Source: Alistipes ihumii AP11
GTDB taxonomy: Bacteria; Bacteroidota; Bacteroidia; Bacteroidales; Rikenellaceae
Reading direction: 5' to 3'
NCBI RefSeq assembly: GCF_025144665.1
Contig: NZ_CP102294.1
Span: 1,798,001-1,862,000, forward strand
DNA length: 64,000 nucleotides
Shown here: in pieces, positions 2,671 to 13,953 of the stretch
How positions within the stretch are numbered: position 1 is the first letter of the stretch
Layout: each line of letters opens with the position of its first letter
Notes under the pieces: generated by a model
Database searches by the model: none
What the model saw: only the letters and a program-made list of their open reading frames with translations
Told to the model about the DNA's origin: nothing
Translations under genes and position numbers: made by a program

Positions 2671-2968
2671 GACGGCGCACCCCTTTTTTGCCGGTGCGGA
2701 TCGCCTCGACATCATCCTTTTTATACCGCTTGCGTCCGCCGAACGGGAAAGACTTTATATACCCGGTCTTTTCCCAGCACCATAAGGTAGACGAGTCGAT
2801 TCGCAAAACGGATAGAACCTCTTTGCGGCTTAAAAATTCTTCGGGAGGTGGTTCTTGTCGAACAGGTTTGAGGCTTCCCGCTGCCTCTTTGAGAATCTCT
2901 CTCAGGTCGTCCAGTTTGACCGCTACGGTTACGTTCGCCCCGGACTCCAACAAATCTTTCAAACTCAT
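2663..2968 (-). CDS. Excisionase-like helix-turn-helix protein
   Basis: A 101-residue protein whose residues 45-95 form a MerR/excisionase-type winged helix (LSRKEVLSVLRIDSSTL, then a GGRKRYKKDDVEA wing). The N-terminal 40 residues are probably a helical oligomerization segment. Genes of this size and fold stand just ahead of the helicase and primase genes in many Bacteroidota mobilizable elements, where they act as excision factors or regulators. Its stop overlaps the helicase start, suggesting one transcript. The direct target is unknown. Confidence 0.75.
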   Translation of the reverse strand: MSLKDLLESGANVTVAVKLDDLREILKEAAGSLKPVRQEPPPEEFLSRKEVLSVLRIDSSTLWCWEKTGYIKSFPFGGRKRYKKDDVEAIRTGKKGVRRHG

Positions 2969-3111
2969 AGTCGAATTTTTTGAGTGTTAAACAATGGGTT
3001 CTGAATCCGACATTCAATCGAATCCGGGGCAAATAAATAAGGAGATTTTTCGGAGAACAAAAACACTCGTTTTCTCCTTAAAATCTCCTTATAATCTCTT
3101 GAAAGAGGTGG

Positions 3112-3825
3112 TTAGCCGTTGTGTTCGGCCATGTATTTTGGGATATCCTCTATGTTAGGAATGGCGTATTTCTCGGTTTGATAGTCCCGCAGTTTCCCTT
3201 TGATATAAGAATCTTCCAAGTCGGACAAAGGGGTAAATACGGCTTTCAGCCACGGCACGACATCCTGTTTCGGCTGTCCGAAATAATGAGCCATGTTCCA
3301 TCCGAAATGAAACAGATCCGCATTTTTCAGTTTTTCGGGCCGGATGGGTACGAAATCTACCGGGCATGCTTCCTCTCGACCATAACACTCGACACACCGA
3401 TCAAGCCGGGCCAGTTCATCGGATGTTACATAAGGGCCTATTGTCCGATGAGCGTAACGCAGGAACAACTCTATTTTTTCTTTTCGTCGTTCGGCGAATT
3501 GCCTGTCTGCATCTTGTTTGATCTGCTCGACATTCATGACGGGCATGTTGTTGATGGACGGAACGGCTTCCGTTTCAACAGCGGGGTGTTTCGTCTCCGG
3601 GAACTTCTTTATAACCCACGGAATGATCGTATGGGAGAAAACCGACATAATAATCAGATACACCACCGCACAAACGCCGAGAACAATGACAAAGGTAAGA
3701 TTCGCCGTACCAGCATCAACTCCTTGCCCCAATACCATCAGCCGTGCGACCATAGCCACGAGCAACCCGACGACAATCACTATTGCCAGCAAAATAATAT
3801 GACTATTTATCTTGCGGTAATCCAT
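3112..3825 (-). CDS. Membrane protein of mobile element, unknown function
   Basis: A 237-residue protein with two predicted membrane segments (about residues 9-31 and 43-65) followed by a 170-residue soluble tail. The tail has a charged helix around 100-120 and a small cysteine cluster (Cys144, Cys147, Cys154). I do not recognise a named family. It precedes the excisionase-like gene on the same strand and is probably part of the element backbone, for example an accessory to conjugative transfer or mobilization, but nothing in the sequence proves this. A start at 3825 is preferred because the first membrane segment begins shortly after it. Confidence 0.65.
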   Translation of the reverse strand: MDYRKINSHIILLAIVIVVGLLVAMVARLMVLGQGVDAGTANLTFVIVLGVCAVVYLIIMSVFSHTIIPWVIKKFPETKHPAVETEAVPSINNMPVMNVEQIKQDADRQFAERRKEKIELFLRYAHRTIGPYVTSDELARLDRCVECYGREEACPVDFVPIRPEKLKNADLFHFGWNMAHYFGQPKQDVVPWLKAVFTPLSDLEDSYIKGKLRDYQTEKYAIPNIEDIPKYMAEHNG

Positions 3826-3933
3826 TTTATCACAAATTAATTCTCACGGTCAAAATTACTCAAATATACAATTTGCTTCCCTATTGTGAGATACTTGTAA
3901 ATCTAATCATCGCTATAAATTTACTAATTTTCG

Positions 3934-5260: not shown

Positions 5261-6661
5261 TTATTCTAAATAGCCTATTAGTTCTTTCTTCATATCCTCG
5301 TCGATGTCGCGGTAACGAGCGAATGCTTTGCTGCCTTCCTTGTGTCCACTCAATGATCTCACGAGGTTGGGGTCTTTCACTTTTTTGTATATATTGCCGA
5401 TGAACGTGCGCCGGGCCATGTGCGATGATGCAACCTCATATAATGGCTTCTGTACTTCTTGTCGGGTCTGCTGATCGAGGACGGTAACGATACGGTCTAA
5501 GCCAGCCTTTTTGAATGCCTCTTTGATTTTCCGGTTGTAATGCTGTTCCGTGCTGAACGGGAACAAACTCCCTCTATCATGGTCCTGATATTTGGCGATC
5601 AGTCGTTTCGCGGTGTCGTTCAGCGGTACACGCACGGTGATCGGTCTGTCCTCTTTAGTCTTTCGGGGAATATACTCCACCGCATCGTTAATAATGCTTC
5701 GGTAGGTCATTTTATACAGGTCGCTGACACGACAACCGATAAGGCATTGAAATACGAAAATATCTCGCTGTGTCTCTATCTCCTTATCATCAGACATATC
5801 GGCTTCGAGCAGTCGGTTTCGTTCTTCATTACTGATATAGATAGGTGTGCCGTAAACGATCTCCCCAATCGTAAAATGTTTGAACGGATTATTTATCGTG
5901 TAGTTGTTGTCGATAGCCCATATAATAAAAGCCCGGAAGCGGGTGAGCATATCCGCAACGGAATTTTGCCCACGCGGTTTCGGCATTCCTTTAGGAATTT
6001 CGTTGCCGTCCTTATCGAGAATCGGCGGACGCTTGCGCTTCGGTGTCAGTAACGCTACTTTAGCGGAATACGGAAATAGATCGTATATCTCCGGGTATTT
6101 CAAGAAGGCCTCTTGTTCGTTTAGCAGAAAGTTCTCGATCTGTCGCAATAGTTCCGGATTAAGATTGGCGAAAGTTATTTTGAAGCCCCGGTGTCCCTCT
6201 TTTTTCCAGTACAACTCGAACCGATGCAGGCTCCGCATGATTACTTTGAAATTTTTGCGTCGCGGCTCCGACAGTTTATGTGTGGTAACGTATCTTTCCA
6301 TAATATCGAAAAACGAAATCTCACTTTCTTTCTGGGCTTTGGGCGGTTTATGGAATTTGCGAACTATTTTCTCAAGGAATGATTTATCAATAATTGATTT
6401 ATCTTCCGCAGTCTGTACCTCTTTTTCAATATGCTCTGTTAAAGCCTTTAATTTGGTCTTTTTCTCCAAAAGCATTTCTCTTTCTTCGCCGGGAATATTA
6501 GGTATGTTGATCTCGTTTTTCTTTCCCCACCGTTTAGCTTCTACCCAAATACCACTGCCGATGCGGATTCTGTTATCCTTGCTAACATAAATTCGCATAC
6601 AAATTTCCGATTCTCCGGCGGCATCTTTTTTTCTGCTGATATTATAATACGTCTTGCCCAT
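5261..6661 (-). CDS. Tyrosine integrase of the mobilizable element
   Basis: A 466-residue site-specific recombinase with every catalytic residue in place: Arg311 (GCRVSDL), Lys334 (RKTKE), His414 and Arg417 (HMARR), His440 (SGHKEG) and the nucleophile Tyr450 (ARYRDI). An arm-binding and core-binding region of about 290 residues precedes the catalytic domain, the usual layout of Bacteroidota element integrases. I start it at the ATG at 6661 (MGKTYYNIS) because the 15 residues upstream look unrelated. It stands at the edge of the element, with paired candidate binding sites at 6715-6731 and 6920-6936. It is intact and should be active if the ends are intact. Confidence 0.9.
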   Translation of the reverse strand: MGKTYYNISRKKDAAGESEICMRIYVSKDNRIRIGSGIWVEAKRWGKKNEINIPNIPGEEREMLLEKKTKLKALTEHIEKEVQTAEDKSIIDKSFLEKIVRKFHKPPKAQKESEISFFDIMERYVTTHKLSEPRRKNFKVIMRSLHRFELYWKKEGHRGFKITFANLNPELLRQIENFLLNEQEAFLKYPEIYDLFPYSAKVALLTPKRKRPPILDKDGNEIPKGMPKPRGQNSVADMLTRFRAFIIWAIDNNYTINNPFKHFTIGEIVYGTPIYISNEERNRLLEADMSDDKEIETQRDIFVFQCLIGCRVSDLYKMTYRSIINDAVEYIPRKTKEDRPITVRVPLNDTAKRLIAKYQDHDRGSLFPFSTEQHYNRKIKEAFKKAGLDRIVTVLDQQTRQEVQKPLYEVASSHMARRTFIGNIYKKVKDPNLVRSLSGHKEGSKAFARYRDIDEDMKKELIGYLE

Positions 6662-6714
6662 ATTTTTACTTTTTCGGCAAGTTATAATATCCTTCGGAAT
6701 ACACAAAATATTTC

Positions 6715-7189: not shown

Positions 7190-8300
7190 ATGAACCAACA
7201 ACTTACAAAAGTGTGACAAAATTCGACGGAAAAAACCAAAAATAAAAGCGTCGTCGCCCAGCGTATCAACGAAAAGTTAGAAAATATTAAGACCAATATC
7301 GGCAAGCGGTACCAGTGTACCTGCGATCGATTCGTATGTCGCTGCAGAGAAAGTCAAGAACGCTTTGCTGGGTTTCGGGGACGGGTACCAACTCCTACTG
7401 CAAACATTCGATGAGTACCTGAACGATTTCGAGAAAAACCGTGTCGGCAAAGACCGCAAAGCCTCCACGTTGGAAAACTACCGTAAGCAGTACCGACGCC
7501 TTGCCGCGTTTCTGCAATATGAGTATAAGGTAGAGGATATACCTTTCAGGGAACTTAAACGGGAGTTTATCGAAAAGTATGTCGTATATCTTTCTACCGT
7601 TCGGAGGATGTTGCCGGGGACATTGCCCAATGCGATCAAGAAACTAAAGTTGATGAGCTATACGGCCTTTAAGAACGGATGGATTGCTTCAGACCCTTTC
7701 GTTGGATTCCGGGTGACAGGTAAGTATCGCGACCGCCGTTTTTTATCGGAATCGGAATTTCAGGCGGTCATGGACGTGCAAGTTCCCAATTATAAAACGG
7801 CTATCGTCAAAGATATATTCGTGTTCTGTTGTTTTACGGGACTGTCTTATGCCGACGTAAAGAAACTTTCCTATGACGACACCCATACAGACGAGCGGAG
7901 TGATGTGTGGATTATCGATAACCGGGCAAAGACGGGAACGCAGTTTAGGGTCAAACTCCTACCTGTAGCCAAAGAACTCGTTGAGAGGTACAGCCGCTTG
8001 CGGTTGTCGGATAATAAGGTGTTTCCGGTCAAGGACTGTGCTTCGATGGATATGTCCTTGCGTCATGTAGCTCGTCATGCGGGATTGTCGTTCAATCCGA
8101 CGATGCACGTTGCGAGGCACACTTTCGCAACCACGATTACTCTTTCTCAGGGCGTACCGCTGGAGACGGTCAGTAAGATGTTAGGCCACAAGCATATCAC
8201 GACGACCCAGATTTATGCGAAAATCACCAACGACAAGATAGGTAGGGATATGGATATGCTGAGCGAAAAAATAGCGGGTAAATTTAGAATGGCTCGATAA
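7190..8300 (+). pseudogene. Tyrosine integrase, damaged at the 5' end
   Basis: The last 311 codons (from about 7365) are an open tyrosine recombinase domain of the Bacteroidota integrase type: CFTGLSYADVKKL, AKTGTQ with the catalytic Lys, HVARHTFAT, LGHKHI and the nucleophile Tyr in QIYAKI. The first catalytic Arg is replaced in FTGLSYAD, as in some known Bacteroides element integrases. Upstream, a matching N-terminal segment can be read from an ATG at 7190 (NKSVVAQRINEKLENIKTNI), but it is broken by a TGA near 7214 and by a frameshift near 7308, after which AIDSYVAAEKVKNALLGFG continues in the next frame. The usual arm-binding N-terminus is therefore lost. A short translated C-terminal product remains possible. 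Confidence 0.75.
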
Positions 8301-8387
8301 ATACCTTAAATATTCGTGTTGAGCATATTGCATTTTCAACTAACAAAGAGAGCATTTTGTCGATGCTATTTCAATACCCATTTCTAA

Positions 8388-8423
8388 TAAAACCGTTTCA
8401 TGATACATTGTGAGGCGGTTTTA
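8388..8423 (+). terminator. Terminator after integrase remnant
   Basis: TAAAACCG pairs with CGGTTTTA and the stem extends by weaker pairs around a short loop. It lies about 90 bases after the integrase stop and is preceded by A-rich and followed by T-containing sequence. A simple intrinsic terminator is the most likely reading. Confidence 0.55.
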
Positions 8424-8463
8424 GTTTCCTAATACACTATACAAATAGAGTCTTTATTTGAGT

Positions 8464-9353
8464 TTATCTGAGCATTTTGCACATTTGGTCGATGCAATGG
8501 CGTTTCTGTTCCGTATTCGGGTGAACGTATAAATTGAGTGTAGTACTGAGATTGGAATGTTCGAGTAGTACACTTACTGTTTTGTAGTCGCACTTGCTTT
8601 CGATGCAGCGGGTAGCGAAGCTATGCCGTAGACCATGGAATTTCATTGCGGGCAATACATATCGGGGAGATTTGTGCGTTAACGTGAGACGATTTGGATG
8701 TCGAAAACGGAGTTATCCTTGTTCGAAGAACAATTCAATGCATTGAGGTAATTTTCAACACTCCGAAAACTCCATTCGAGAAATTCCGATGACAAAAGAC
8801 TTGCAGAAAATGTTCGCCCTATCAAAAAGTTGTGAACGGGAATTTTTACGTCCTGCCGAATGATCCGACGTCGGCCGAACCGCGCGCATATCGAAACTAT
8901 TACAGACAATTATGCAATCGCTCGGACTGCCGTACTTAGACATAGTAAATACCCAGATTCTTGAACGTAAGATGAGATTGGACATATTCCATGATGTGCC
9001 TTTGATGCGAACGACTTAAAATATCTATTGACTGTTTGTCGCGTTCGGTCGGAAACTTTATGTCTATCTGACGATATTCAATCATTTGGTTCTTGACACC
9101 GAAATGCGTTACCGTTTTCAGAACGATCAAAATCACCTTGACGGTTTTCAGGCTTAATCCTTCGTCGAGTTTACGAAATACGAAGGTTTGCACATGCTGG
9201 CCCCCGACGAGTATCCGTACCATTTTACCGAATAAAGGCAAAATGTGGTTCCCGATCAAAAGCATGCAGGCCCAAGATCGAACGCTTTGCATGATGTTTC
9301 TTATCTTCTATTCTCAGCGCGACGATTTCCGATAGTTTGGTTGCTGCCGGCAT
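8464..9353 (-). pseudogene. Dead tyrosine integrase with an inverted middle section
   Basis: Three parts of one integrase are readable. The N-terminal part is on the minus strand: MPAATKLSEIVA from 9353, a frameshift, then LPLFGKM, RKLDEGLSLKTVK and FPTERDKQSIDILS down to NLGIYY near 8945. The C-terminal part is also on the minus strand, from KFHGLRHSFATRC near 8646 through STTLNLYVHP to the stop at 8464. The missing middle is on the plus strand between about 8646 and 8940: GEICALT, DDLDVENGVILVRRTIQ, NSIREIPMTKDLQKMF, GNFYVLPNDPTSAEPRAYRN and MQSLGLPYL. Placed in reverse it joins the two ends in family order. The flipped part has a stop (where a Trp is expected) and frameshifts, and the motif GH has become EH. 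The gene cannot make an active recombinase. Confidence 0.85.
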
Positions 9354-9487
9354 AGCTTAAAAGGTTTCGGACACGCCGATCCGTACCCTACCTTGCCCGC
9401 CGGATCGACGAACCTGATCTTCCGACAAACCGAGACTTCATTTATGCGTCGATCCGAAGTTTCGGAGGAATATTAAAAAATCACATC

Positions 9488-10759
9488 ATGACAACCATCC
9501 AAGTGAAATTGCGTCATTCCGGCGTACAGGGTAAGGCCGGCACGATCTACTATCAAATCACCCGTGGCCGAAAGACACGCCGGATCGCTACACACCTTCG
9601 GATCGCACCCGAACACTGGCTGCCGGCGGCGCAACGCATCGCCCCTGCAATCTCGCAGACCCCGGAGGGACGTCTGCTGCGGCACCGTATCGAGCACGAC
9701 ATCGCATCGTTACGCCGTATCGTTCGGGAATTGGACACGCAAGGGAACGGTTACGGACCGGACGATATCATCATGCGATTCCGTATCATGGCACAGCGCA
9801 TAACGGTAGCCGAATCGATGCGGCGCGAGATCGACGAACTGACGAACAGCAACCGCCTCGGAACGGCCCGGAACTACCGGCGGGCGTTGAACAGTTTTAT
9901 GAGTTTTCTCGGGGCAAAAGACATTCCTTTTTCGGCCGTAACCGAATCCCTGATCGACGAGTACAACGGCTTTCTGATCCGGCGGGGCGTCGTGCGCAAT
10001 ACCGTATCGTTCTATATGCGTATTCTCAGAGCCGTTTACAATAAAGCCGTCCGCAAGTACGGTATCGAGCAGACCTATCCGTTTCGGCATGTCTATACCG
10101 GAATCGACCGTACCCGCCAGCGGGCTATCGACGAACGTTTCATCGCCAAGCTATGGAGGCTGGATCTGACCGATGCCCCCTCTCTCTCGCTGGCACGCGA
10201 TCTCTTTATTTTCAGTTACTGCGCGCGCGGCATGGCTTTCGTCGACATGGCCTATCTGCAAACGAAAAATATCCGGGACAATGAAATCGTCTACACGCGT
10301 CGCAAAACCGGACAACCGCTACGCATCCGCATCGAACCGTGCATGCGCGAGATCATCGTCCGGCATGCGGCGGCGACTTATCCGTCTTACCTTTTCCCGA
10401 TTCTGCGGACAACGAAACCTGACAAGGCCTTTTCCCAGTATCAGACGGCACTGAATCGCTACAACCAGCAATTGAAGGAGCTGGCACAACGCCTGAACCT
10501 GAAGGAGTCGCTCTCTTCCTATGTAGCCCGGCACAGCTGGGCCACGGCTGCACGAAAACACAACATCCCCCTTTCCGTTATCAGCGCGGGGATGGGGCAC
10601 GCTTCGGAACGAACGACCCTGATCTATCTGGCTTCGCTGGAGAATTCGGCAATAGATGCTGCCAATCAGAAGATTACGGCTGTTTTGAATAAAAACGTCT
10701 CTATGCAAGAAACCATAAGCGGAGATAAACAGTTGGTAATGAATAGGCATGTTGTATAA
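9488..10759 (+). CDS. Tyrosine recombinase beside the capsule locus
   Basis: A 423-residue, apparently intact recombinase. The catalytic residues are Arg247 (CARGMAF), Lys273 (RRKTGQ), Arg348 within SYVARHSWAT (where Tyr345 takes the usual His position), His371 (GMGHASE) and Tyr380 (TLIYLASLE). The SYVARHSW and MGHASERTT signatures are typical of Bacteroidota recombinases that sit beside surface polysaccharide loci, some of which invert promoters; others are phage or transposon integrases. The next gene is upxY, 387 bp downstream, with a good promoter in between. I found no convincing inverted repeats around that promoter, so promoter inversion is only a hypothesis. Base composition matches the GC-rich chromosome more than the AT-rich element to the left. 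Confidence 0.85.
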   Translation: MTTIQVKLRHSGVQGKAGTIYYQITRGRKTRRIATHLRIAPEHWLPAAQRIAPAISQTPEGRLLRHRIEHDIASLRRIVRELDTQGNGYGPDDIIMRFRIMAQRITVAESMRREIDELTNSNRLGTARNYRRALNSFMSFLGAKDIPFSAVTESLIDEYNGFLIRRGVVRNTVSFYMRILRAVYNKAVRKYGIEQTYPFRHVYTGIDRTRQRAIDERFIAKLWRLDLTDAPSLSLARDLFIFSYCARGMAFVDMAYLQTKNIRDNEIVYTRRKTGQPLRIRIEPCMREIIVRHAAATYPSYLFPILRTTKPDKAFSQYQTALNRYNQQLKELAQRLNLKESLSSYVARHSWATAARKHNIPLSVISAGMGHASERTTLIYLASLENSAIDAANQKITAVLNKNVSMQETISGDKQLVMNRHVV

Positions 10760-10932
10760 AATGCCGCATTGTTACATTTGTTTGCAACGTAAACACAAAC
10801 ATTTTACACAGATGGCGAACGGCATAGCAAAACGATAGCTTGATATCGGCAGATAAGCACCATTATGAATGTATTTATTTTGTTTTTAATATGTTGCACT
10901 AATACGGATAAATATTTTTTCGATCCGACGAC

Positions 10933-10963
10933 TTGTCCATTGTTGTTTTTTTATATATGTTTG
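10933..10963 (+). promoter_or_regulatory. Capsule operon promoter (TTG-N20-TATGTTTG)
   Basis: TTG at 10933-10935 is followed by exactly 20 bases and then TATGTTTG at 10956-10963, a full match to the Bacteroidota primary sigma promoter pattern. Transcription would start near 10970 and leave a leader of about 175 bases before upxY. Long leaders are the known site of UpxY antitermination in Bacteroides. Confidence 0.75.
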
Positions 10964-10969
10964 TAATCG

Positions 10970-11146
10970 CATTATGTGGTTTCTTGCATAGAGACCATGC
11001 GAAACGGGATCATCTCGTCGCCGCATTCGAATGCCATAATCGCAAGATGCGAACGAGGGGAAACGCATAGTGCGAAATGAAACGAAGGGCAAGTCTGAAA
11101 TTTTCAGTATCCCTTTCTGTTTGACGGGTAAGTCTTTGATATATCG
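10970..11146 (+). other. Untranslated leader of the capsule operon
   Basis: About 175 bases without a gene between the promoter and upxY. It contains a perfect 12-bp palindrome GCATTCGAATGC at 11022-11033 and several related ATGCGAA or GCATAG words (near 10987, 10997, 11046 and 11064) that could form alternative hairpins. By analogy with Bacteroides, this leader would carry the pause or termination signals on which UpxY acts. Confidence 0.5.
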
Positions 11147-12310
11147 ATGGTTGTACAAGCCGTTCGATATGGCGGAGGAGTGTCTGTAACTGAAAAAAGC
11201 GACTGTTTTTTGGAAGCGAATATAGATACTTTGGAAGGGGAGACCAAGGACATTCCCGAGTTGGCCGAACGCTTTGCACGCAGAAGAAACAGCCAAGCCG
11301 TAAGGTGGTACGTGCTGACGCTTCCTTCCTGTCACCGGGGACCGGCCGTCGGTCTGCAAAGGGAGCTGGACCGCCGCATCCGTTGCGGCGAGCCGGGATT
11401 CGAGTTCTTCGCTCCCTCGTACGTAGAAGTGAAGGACGAGGAGGGACATTTCGTCCGTACCCGCCGCCCGTTGCTTTACAACTATGTTTTTGTCCGCTCG
11501 TCGGAAAGCGAGATATATCGGATGAAGCAGGAATTGCCTCAATACAACTTCCTGCCGCGAGTGCGGGAAGGGCTACGCGGATACTATCCTTACCTGTCCG
11601 ACGAGGCGATGCGCAACCTGCAATGGGTTGCACGCTCCTACTGCGACGAGCTACCTGTCTATATGCCCGAAACGGAGAGGCTCGCCAAAGGCGACCGCAT
11701 CCGTATTATCGCGGGGAGATTCAAGGGTGCTGAGGCACGCGTAGCGATCCGACCCGGCGGAGGACGGAAAGATGTCGTCGTATGCGTAGAGAACTGGATG
11801 TGGGTTCCGCTGCTGCACGTCCGTCCGGGAGAGTACGAGATCATCGCTCTGCACGAGGGCGGAAAACACGTATATACCCGGCTGGATAACGACCGGTTGC
11901 AGGAAGGCCTGCACGAGGCTATGGGGCGCTGCTTCTCCCCGGGAGGCGCGACGGACGAAGATCGCGCCTTGGCGGCCGAAACGATCAAACAATACGGCCG
12001 ACTGCAAGTAGACAGCGATGTGTTGCGCAGCAAACTCTACTCCATACTGCTTCCGGCCTACACGTTGCTCGGGGAGAGGAAAGAGCGCGAAAAGCTGATC
12101 GGGACGATCCGACACCTGCTTCCGCTCGTCCAGGCAGAACAGGCTCGTGCGAATTTGCTCGTCACATTGTACGGATGCGCGGATAGCAGTCTTGATTACG
12201 AACGGGCCCACGAGATCGTCGAACGATGGAAAAGGGAAGAATCTCCCAAGAAAAGCAAGGCGCGCCTGATCCGGTGGCTGGACGATTACGACCGCTGGCT
12301 GGGCCACTGA
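11147..12310 (+). CDS. upxY: UpxY-family transcription antiterminator
   Basis: A 387-residue NusG-like protein. In Bacteroides, UpxY proteins let RNA polymerase read through the leader of their own capsule operon. The NGN domain is visible from about residue 52 (RWYVLTLPS) to 150, including FFAPSYVEVKDEEG and YNYVFVRSS. A KOW-like segment follows near 178-200 (KGDRIRIIAGRFKGAEARV). The remaining 170 residues are longer than the usual NusG paralogue and predominantly helical. The true start could be one of several internal codons. The gene follows the promoter at 10933 directly and is followed by upxZ, the canonical order at the head of these loci. Confidence 0.88.
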   Translation: MVVQAVRYGGGVSVTEKSDCFLEANIDTLEGETKDIPELAERFARRRNSQAVRWYVLTLPSCHRGPAVGLQRELDRRIRCGEPGFEFFAPSYVEVKDEEGHFVRTRRPLLYNYVFVRSSESEIYRMKQELPQYNFLPRVREGLRGYYPYLSDEAMRNLQWVARSYCDELPVYMPETERLAKGDRIRIIAGRFKGAEARVAIRPGGGRKDVVVCVENWMWVPLLHVRPGEYEIIALHEGGKHVYTRLDNDRLQEGLHEAMGRCFSPGGATDEDRALAAETIKQYGRLQVDSDVLRSKLYSILLPAYTLLGERKEREKLIGTIRHLLPLVQAEQARANLLVTLYGCADSSLDYERAHEIVERWKREESPKKSKARLIRWLDDYDRWLGH

Positions 12311-12459
12311 ATGCTGCACGCTTTTACACGCTTGCATATGCTTGATTTTCCGAATCCCTGCTTCAGGTATGGTTCTCGGACTCGCTTGGAAAACGGATAC
12401 GGAATAAACCGGTAGCCGGACTCGATCGAAACATCACCTTAAGTTAAGGAAGAGTCAGT

Positions 12460-12885
12460 ATGCGACAACCCGTGGAAAACGCAGAAATCATGGCTGGAGG
12501 ACCGCTACGAAATACCGAGGCCGAACCTTCGGGAGTCCGTCTGATGGCCTTCTTGGCAGCTCACCGAACGGAAGTGCTCGCTCGGGAACAAAATAACGAG
12601 CGATTCATCCACTTGTATGGCACAGGGGGATACTGGGCGGCTTTCGAACGATCCGCCTACCAGCTATGCCGGTTGTTTCCCCGAAACGAAACCGCGGTTT
12701 TCCATTTCGCGGCTTATCCTTTTCCCGTCGTCATGGCATCCATTGCGGACGGCGAGCTGCGGGCCTACTCCCGGAGACACATACTGCGGACCGTTGATCC
12801 CGATCATAAAGTGCTGACGGTTCCGGTACTCGCGCCCGAGGCGTACAAACGATGGCGTGGCGAAAAAATAGAAGAATTCGCGTAA
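12460..12885 (+). CDS. upxZ: UpxZ-family inhibitor of other UpxY proteins
   Basis: A 141-residue protein recognisable as UpxZ by LYGTGGYWAAFERSAYQL around residues 52-69 and by its place right after upxY. In Bacteroides, UpxZ proteins block UpxY antiterminators of other capsule loci, so that one capsule is made at a time. The first 20 residues look dispensable; an internal ATG (MAFLAAH) may be the real start. The 149-bp gap to upxY contains no gene, and 174 bases separate it from rfbA. Confidence 0.82.
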   Translation: MRQPVENAEIMAGGPLRNTEAEPSGVRLMAFLAAHRTEVLAREQNNERFIHLYGTGGYWAAFERSAYQLCRLFPRNETAVFHFAAYPFPVVMASIADGELRAYSRRHILRTVDPDHKVLTVPVLAPEAYKRWRGEKIEEFA

Positions 12886-13059
12886 CGAGATACTTTGCTC
12901 CTTTCACGAACGGCATTGCTCGTCCATGAGATATTGCGGAGAACCGGTTGTTCGGAGAGCGAATGATTTGTATAACATGGAAACGATAATCGACCGGCCT
13001 GTATCCGAGATCCGGCGCAGGCCGGTCGGGCACAGTAACCGTTTTTACTTAATCATCCT

Positions 13060-13953
13060 ATGAAAGGTATCGTATTGGCCGGGGGGTCGGGGACGCGGTT
13101 GTACCCGATCACCAAGGGGGTTTCCAAGCAGTTGCTGCCGATCTACGACAAGCCGATGATCTACTATCCGCTGTCGGTTCTGATGCTGGCCGGAATCCGG
13201 GACATTCTGGTGATCTCCACGCCGTGGGATCTGTCCTCGTTCCGGCGGCTGCTCGGAGACGGGTCCGACTACGGGGTCCGTCTCTCCTATGCCGAGCAGC
13301 CGTCTCCCGACGGACTCGCTCAGGCGTTTCTGATCGGAGAGGAGTTCATCGGGGACGAGGCCGTATGCCTCGTTCTGGGCGACAACATCTTTCAGGGGGT
13401 GGGCTTTCCCGCTCAGCTGCGGGAGGCCGTCGGCACGGCCGAGCGGGAGGGCAAGGCAACCGTTTTCGGATACCGGGTAGACGATCCCCAGCGGTACGGC
13501 GTGGCCGAGTTCGACGAGAACGGGACATGCCTCTCGATCGAGGAGAAGCCCGAGCATCCTAAATCCAATTACGCCGTAGTGGGACTGTACTTCTACCCGA
13601 ACAGAGTGGTCTCCGTGGCCAAATCGATCGAGCCCTCCTCCCGCGGGGAGCTGGAGATCACCTCGGTGAACCAACGGTTTCTCGCCGACGGAGAGCTCAA
13701 GGTGCAGACCCTCGGACGAGGCTTCGCCTGGCTCGACACCGGAACGCACGATTCGCTCTCGGAGGCGTCGATCTTCGTCGAGGTGCTCGAGAAGCGGCAG
13801 GGGGTCAAGATCGCCTGTCTGGAGGAGATCGCCTATCGCAACGGGTGGATATCCGAAGAGAAACTGCGGGAGGTGGCCGAACCCATGCTCAGGAACCAGT
13901 ACGGACAATATCTGCTCAAGCTGCTCGCAGAGGTCGCCCGCGACGGGCGCTGA
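13060..13953 (+). CDS. rfbA: Glucose-1-phosphate thymidylyltransferase
   Basis: Makes dTDP-glucose from glucose 1-phosphate and dTTP, the first step of the dTDP-sugar branch. The 297-residue length is normal. The nucleotide-binding signature GGSGTRLYP is at 8-16, with [17 protein letters not shown] following at 24-40. The catalytic region GDNIFQG (about 110-116) and the sugar-binding [19 protein letters not shown] stretch near 161-179 are intact. It is GC-rich like the core chromosome. A 5' ATG follows the leader CTTAATCATCCT. It is separated from rfbC by an unusual 866-bp gap. Confidence 0.95.

Follow-up and report, generated by a model that had tools for sequence, protein, structure and literature searches.

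The window analysed here, a stretch of 64,000 nucleotides from the gut bacterium Alistipes ihumii AP11, carries at 8467-9353 the remnant of one tyrosine recombinase of about 308 aa, the middle of which reads on the opposite strand from both of its ends (Table 1). The upstream neighbour of this remnant is an intact integrase gene (9488-10759), which precedes an apparent capsule or O-antigen locus; in the Alistipes indistinctus plasmid p2BBH45, the counterpart of that locus has annotated rfbA and rfbC genes. Shortly before the remnant in window coordinates come two more integrase-like genes, one with a Pfam integrase match and one named integrase-like by eye from its sequence, and three integrase genes and one remnant are found within about 5.5 kb.

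Table 1. Features of the recombinase remnant and its surroundings (window coordinates)
Feature	Position	Strand	Basis or remark
Integrase-like gene	5261-6706	-	Named by eye
Integrase gene	7365-8300	+	Pfam integrase match
C-terminal part of remnant, residues ~246-308, open reading frame, PF00589	8467-8654	-	91% DNA identity to L020 (sense 737-922 = window 8654-8469)
Left breakpoint, GGCA	8651-8654		C-part match ends and middle match starts; 4-bp microhomology with the right breakpoint
Inverted middle, residues ~141-246	8655-8931 (alignment from 8654)	+	DNA match to L020 sense 423-740, 76% with gaps counted
Right breakpoint, TGCC	8928-8931		End of middle match adjoins end of N-part match
N-terminal part of remnant, residues 1 to ~139	8932-9353	-	DNA match to L020 sense 1-419 (window 9353-8932), 80%
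Intact integrase gene	9488-10759		423 aa in this orientation
Candidate invertible segment	10697-10995		299 bp, perfect 19-bp inverted repeats at its ends
387-aa gene	11147-12310		Presumably UpxY-like; no Pfam match

An earlier note on this DNA had placed the N- and C-terminal parts of one integrase on the minus strand with the middle on the plus strand between them, and both tblastn and DNA alignment bore this out. Searches with P0001, an integrase from a Bacteroides finegoldii plasmid record, and with the protein of locus L007 recovered three stretches covering complementary residue ranges, of which the two outer ones (N and C) read on the minus strand and the middle one on the plus strand (E ~1e-18 to 1e-32), and the three pieces were also found (E 3e-29 to 1e-54) with P0002, the protein encoded by locus L020 in a genome of the same family as A. 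ihumii (G025) and the closest intact relative found. The remaining P0001 and L007 matches within 8301-9500 had E-values of 0.009 or worse, and elsewhere in the window the single match at E 0.001 was that of P0001 to a separate integrase near 7824-8207. Amino acid identity to P0002 was 80% for residues 29-135, 56% for residues 142-239, where frameshifts lower the value, and 89% for residues 246-308. These E-values, and the way the three pieces together match a single protein, led us to reject chance resemblance; moreover, L020 was the best among the compared relatives for each piece, which argues that they belong to one gene. The Pfam profile PF00589 (Phage_integrase) matched the C part at E 6.5e-12 and intact P0002 at E 1.9e-28; the reading frame of the N part, scanned alone, matched no Pfam family at E 0.001.

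By alignment with L020, the inverted segment is about 278 bp long, from 8651/8655 to 8928/8931, rather than the approximately 8646-8940 originally proposed, since the plus-strand bases up to 8940 match the end of the L020 N part on the minus strand. For the same reason, the motif SLGLPYL that had been assigned to the middle stands except for its last two residues, YL, whose bases on the minus strand match that N-part end. Inverted sequence common to both junctions amounts to only 4 bp (GGCA/TGCC), and a junction match of at least 4 bp occurred in 2.0% of random breakpoint pairs spaced 150-450 bp apart (200,000 draws within 8301-9500). A match of 4 bp is weak to modest evidence for any mechanism. 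Among the 25 longest of 42 inverted-repeat pairs, none had one arm at each breakpoint; the nearest was a perfect 8-bp pair (8634-8641/8986-8993) lying about 10 bp from the left breakpoint and 55 bp from the right. The initial impression that no clear inverted repeats mark the breakpoints was essentially right, with 4 bp only at the junctions. An exact-match search of IMG/VR found no copy of the left junction.

All three parts have diverged from L020, with identities over ungapped codons of 81.4% for the N part (414 bases), 86.0% for the middle (258 bases) and 90.7% for the C part (183 bases). Leaving out alignment ends, there were three gaps in the N part, seven in the middle and none in the C part; the middle has eight gaps as aligned if one at its first base is counted, and three of its gaps may represent one deletion of about 30 bp. 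The single in-frame stop also lies in the middle, in agreement with the stop and frameshifts first noticed there, and the C part is open over its 63 codons. Differences between the N part and L020 fell 16/16/45 on the three codon positions, compared with 10/6/30 (small numbers) for a control comparison of L035 with L020 over the first 134 residues, which are open in both; this relative excess at positions 1 and 2 is what would be expected after long function followed by decay. The earlier view that the event is old or was followed by decay agrees with the indels, the stop and the surplus of differences that change amino acids. In the flipped part, the arginine of the P0002 RIGE motif has become histidine. 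We take this residue to be the box-I catalytic arginine, of a catalytic set comprising box-I Arg, HxxR and Tyr, and its loss would speak against an active enzyme, not against descent from a tyrosine recombinase; the C part keeps HGLRH and LYVHP. As the gene stands, a full-length protein is predicted to be impossible in either orientation.

The usual order of the gene, sought in related genomes as the earlier note had advised, was found across both breakpoints on one strand at 48 of 54 loci matching P0002 at E 1e-8; the other six (L005, L035, L049, L054, L060 and L071) were partial, and none was of mixed strand. This count takes in distant integrases and leaves out the window's own locus, the second copy in the same genome and three duplicate fetches. 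With 48 loci straight across and none flipped, the inversion is most plausibly a derived state, and this locus is the one place where it is known so far. These relatives represent a sample, taken from 11 of 200 family genomes (E 1e-40) and 21 of 393 order genomes (E 1e-12) and from contig scans that yielded 11 loci in genome contigs and 8 in viral contigs. Of nine genomes in the genus searched at the DNA level, A. ihumii included, A. ihumii alone gave a match. Among phage records, 1663 matched P0002, 1662 of them below 60% identity, and window 8600-9000 had no DNA match. The description of the middle as inverted in place was upheld: among the relatives compared, the pieces share the same closest one, they meet with an ambiguity of about 4 bp, and no other locus is flipped.

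Three truncated copies were inspected individually. At L004, elsewhere in the same genome, a second and diverged remnant (5796-5965), 82.8% identical to the C part in the window, keeps residues 243-285 in the usual order and extends beyond the C-side junction by about 14 bp, where a deletion ends it; at about 83% identity it would not be the direct parent allele. Plasmid p2BBH45 holds a third copy of the neighbourhood with recombinase residues 1-41 only. At L035 (3001-3438, from a Rikenellaceae MAG), the same recombinase, 90% identical to P0002, stops at residue 134, a point no more than about 17 bp away from where the N part in the window ends. A shared breakpoint was considered and rejected: unrelated DNA and reading frames follow the cut, with neither middle nor C part, and we therefore treat the position as coincidence.

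Kinship of the remnant to recombinases beside hsdS genes is an addition to what the first reading from the letters had offered. The closest relative found (L020/L063) is a recombinase gene divergent from hsdS: at L063 the start of its intact reading frame is separated by 3 bp from a divergent Methylase_S reading frame, and further along lie a second specificity gene and then HsdM and HsdR, with the Methylase_S, HsdM and HsdR domains confirmed. An inverted repeat of 48 bp (91.7%) lies close to where the two hsdS genes begin. Of 30 distinct relatives that are full-length and at least 55% identical to P0002, 23 have hsdS-like sequence upstream, the nearest match within 180 bp and the one or two nearest per relative all divergent; because the probes were taken from L063 and L007, a match at L020 and L007 is built in. 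Seven of the 30 gave no match with these probes; the upstream DNA searched was under 120 bp for L026, L027 and L028, 349 bp for L039, 534 bp for L024, 2.3 kb for L006 and 3.0 kb for L033. The 30 exclude three duplicates and three more distant relatives (43-47% identity; no hsdS match in these three), and the survey was made before seven full-length viral-contig relatives were found. Intact members probably shuffle their adjoining hsdS genes, and there are known type I loci that invert and encode their own recombinase (PMC7394358). Profile searches of the A. ihumii genome (one contig, 2.78 Mb) returned no Methylase_S (PF01420) and no HsdM_N (PF12161) match, while each profile found matches in 9 of 14 control genomes. 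Given relatives next to hsdS and a genome with neither domain, the remnant is best read as the putative orphan of a lost hsdS-shuffling type I system, or the recombinase may have arrived alone, with no full type I system in this genome.

A better candidate for a switch than the recombinase middle is the 299-bp segment at 10697-10995. The same segment is present at L004 (4075-4373), 100% identical and in the opposite orientation, between collinear flanks of 99.6-99.8% identity. Within the genome, its 19-bp repeat (up to 3 mismatches allowed) is confined to the four arms of these two copies. The 3' end of the intact integrase gene contains one of the arms; its product therefore has a different ending in each copy (423 aa in the window, 410 aa at L004), and inversion would alter the C-terminus of the enzyme that is probably the invertase. 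Promoter switches of such kind are known at capsule loci in Bacteroidales. A relaxed Bacteroides-type promoter expression had two matches in the window orientation of the segment and none in the flipped one, and the strict form had none in either. Over about 4.6 kb (window 9295-13933, L004 1139-5774) the two loci are 99.6-99.8% identical, whereas the adjoining recombinase remnants are about 83% identical, which suggests recent copying between distant loci. Within this stretch, the L004 counterpart of the 387-aa gene (2761-3923) is split into frames of 287 and 113 aa.

With these neighbours, a reversible intragenic inverton that turns the recombinase gene on and off would come to mind, in a gene family and a neighbourhood rich in DNA inversion and with a segment bounded by 19-bp inverted repeats, found in both orientations, only about 2 kb away. 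We nevertheless regard it as very unlikely: the junction match is 4 bp where the inverted repeats of invertons measure 10-40 nt (PMC11892184), the nearest longer perfect repeat among the 25 longest of 42 pairs, the 8-bp one, sits off the right breakpoint, and the gaps and stop of the middle and the gaps of the N part leave both orientations broken. Resemblance of the breakpoints to the L063 hsdS repeats or to the 19-bp repeat (10697/10977) was also tried, and in ten comparisons the lowest random-window fraction was 0.009 (one hsdS repeat, left breakpoint only) and the other nine were 0.163 or more, which is not convincing after correction for ten tests. The 4-bp ends, the lack of a convincing repeat likeness and the lack of an orientation with a working protein together make site-specific inversion unlikely. 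That the enzyme itself, or one of the recombinases nearby, inverted the middle of this gene at weak sites and left it permanently off is highly improbable.

Explanations that do away with an inversion event in the gene fare little better. Insertion, in reverse, of a fragment from a further integrase copy, with the original middle deleted, could draw on the other family remnant in this genome, at L004. However, the middle and its flanks share L020 as closest relative, diverge from it to a comparable degree (N 81.4%, middle 86.0%, C 90.7%), and meet within about 4 bp where the flanks stop, and we find such an insertion distinctly unlikely. Introduction of a short inversion during genome assembly is very unlikely in a genome of a single contig that is 99.98% complete, with no long repeat flanking the segment among the 25 longest of 42 inverted pairs.

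We therefore consider it very likely that the remnant is a recombinase pseudogene, kin to hsdS-shuffling enzymes, whose middle was turned by a rare illegitimate, probably microhomology-mediated event, and that it is not a switch. Loss of hsdS and HsdM from the genome would have left the recombinase gene free to decay and, at some point before or after the first inactivating mutation, about 278 bp of its middle would have turned around between the 4-bp GGCA/TGCC matches, by template switching or by breakage and rejoining. Decay would have made the flip tolerable. From the comparisons above we infer the former function, a once-full type I system here, the mechanism of inversion and its tolerance through decay.

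The proposed history has partial parallels among known systems. PsrA/CreX of Streptococcus pneumoniae is the recombinase of an inverting type I hsdS locus, and the relatives of the window gene are likewise tyrosine recombinases divergent from hsdS, with inverted repeats in the hsdS genes at L063. The likeness drawn here is one of gene arrangement, and the window copy differs in being broken, with its middle flipped, in a genome with no Methylase_S or HsdM_N match. Intragenic invertons, reportedly described by Chanin et al. in 2024, resemble the present inversion in lying wholly within one gene, but here the ends have no repeats of at least 10 nt, there is no alternative intact frame and there is no sign of switching. 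Short microinversions distinguish human and chimpanzee (PMC8755829) and are likewise turned in place; the case here is bacterial and inside a decayed recombinase gene, and the likeness drawn is one of form. No published title among the top matches of larger literature listings reported this inversion.

The flip is genuine, though an ordinary accident, in a gene that had probably lost its use, and by itself it matters little. It does show how a bacterial pseudogene can conceal a short inversion made in place, in a form that routine annotation would report as unrelated fragments. The remnant suggests that a type I restriction-modification system was lost from the lineage with its recombinase left behind. 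The more useful object of study is the invertible segment at 10697-10995, which illustrates the form that a switch takes in this genome.
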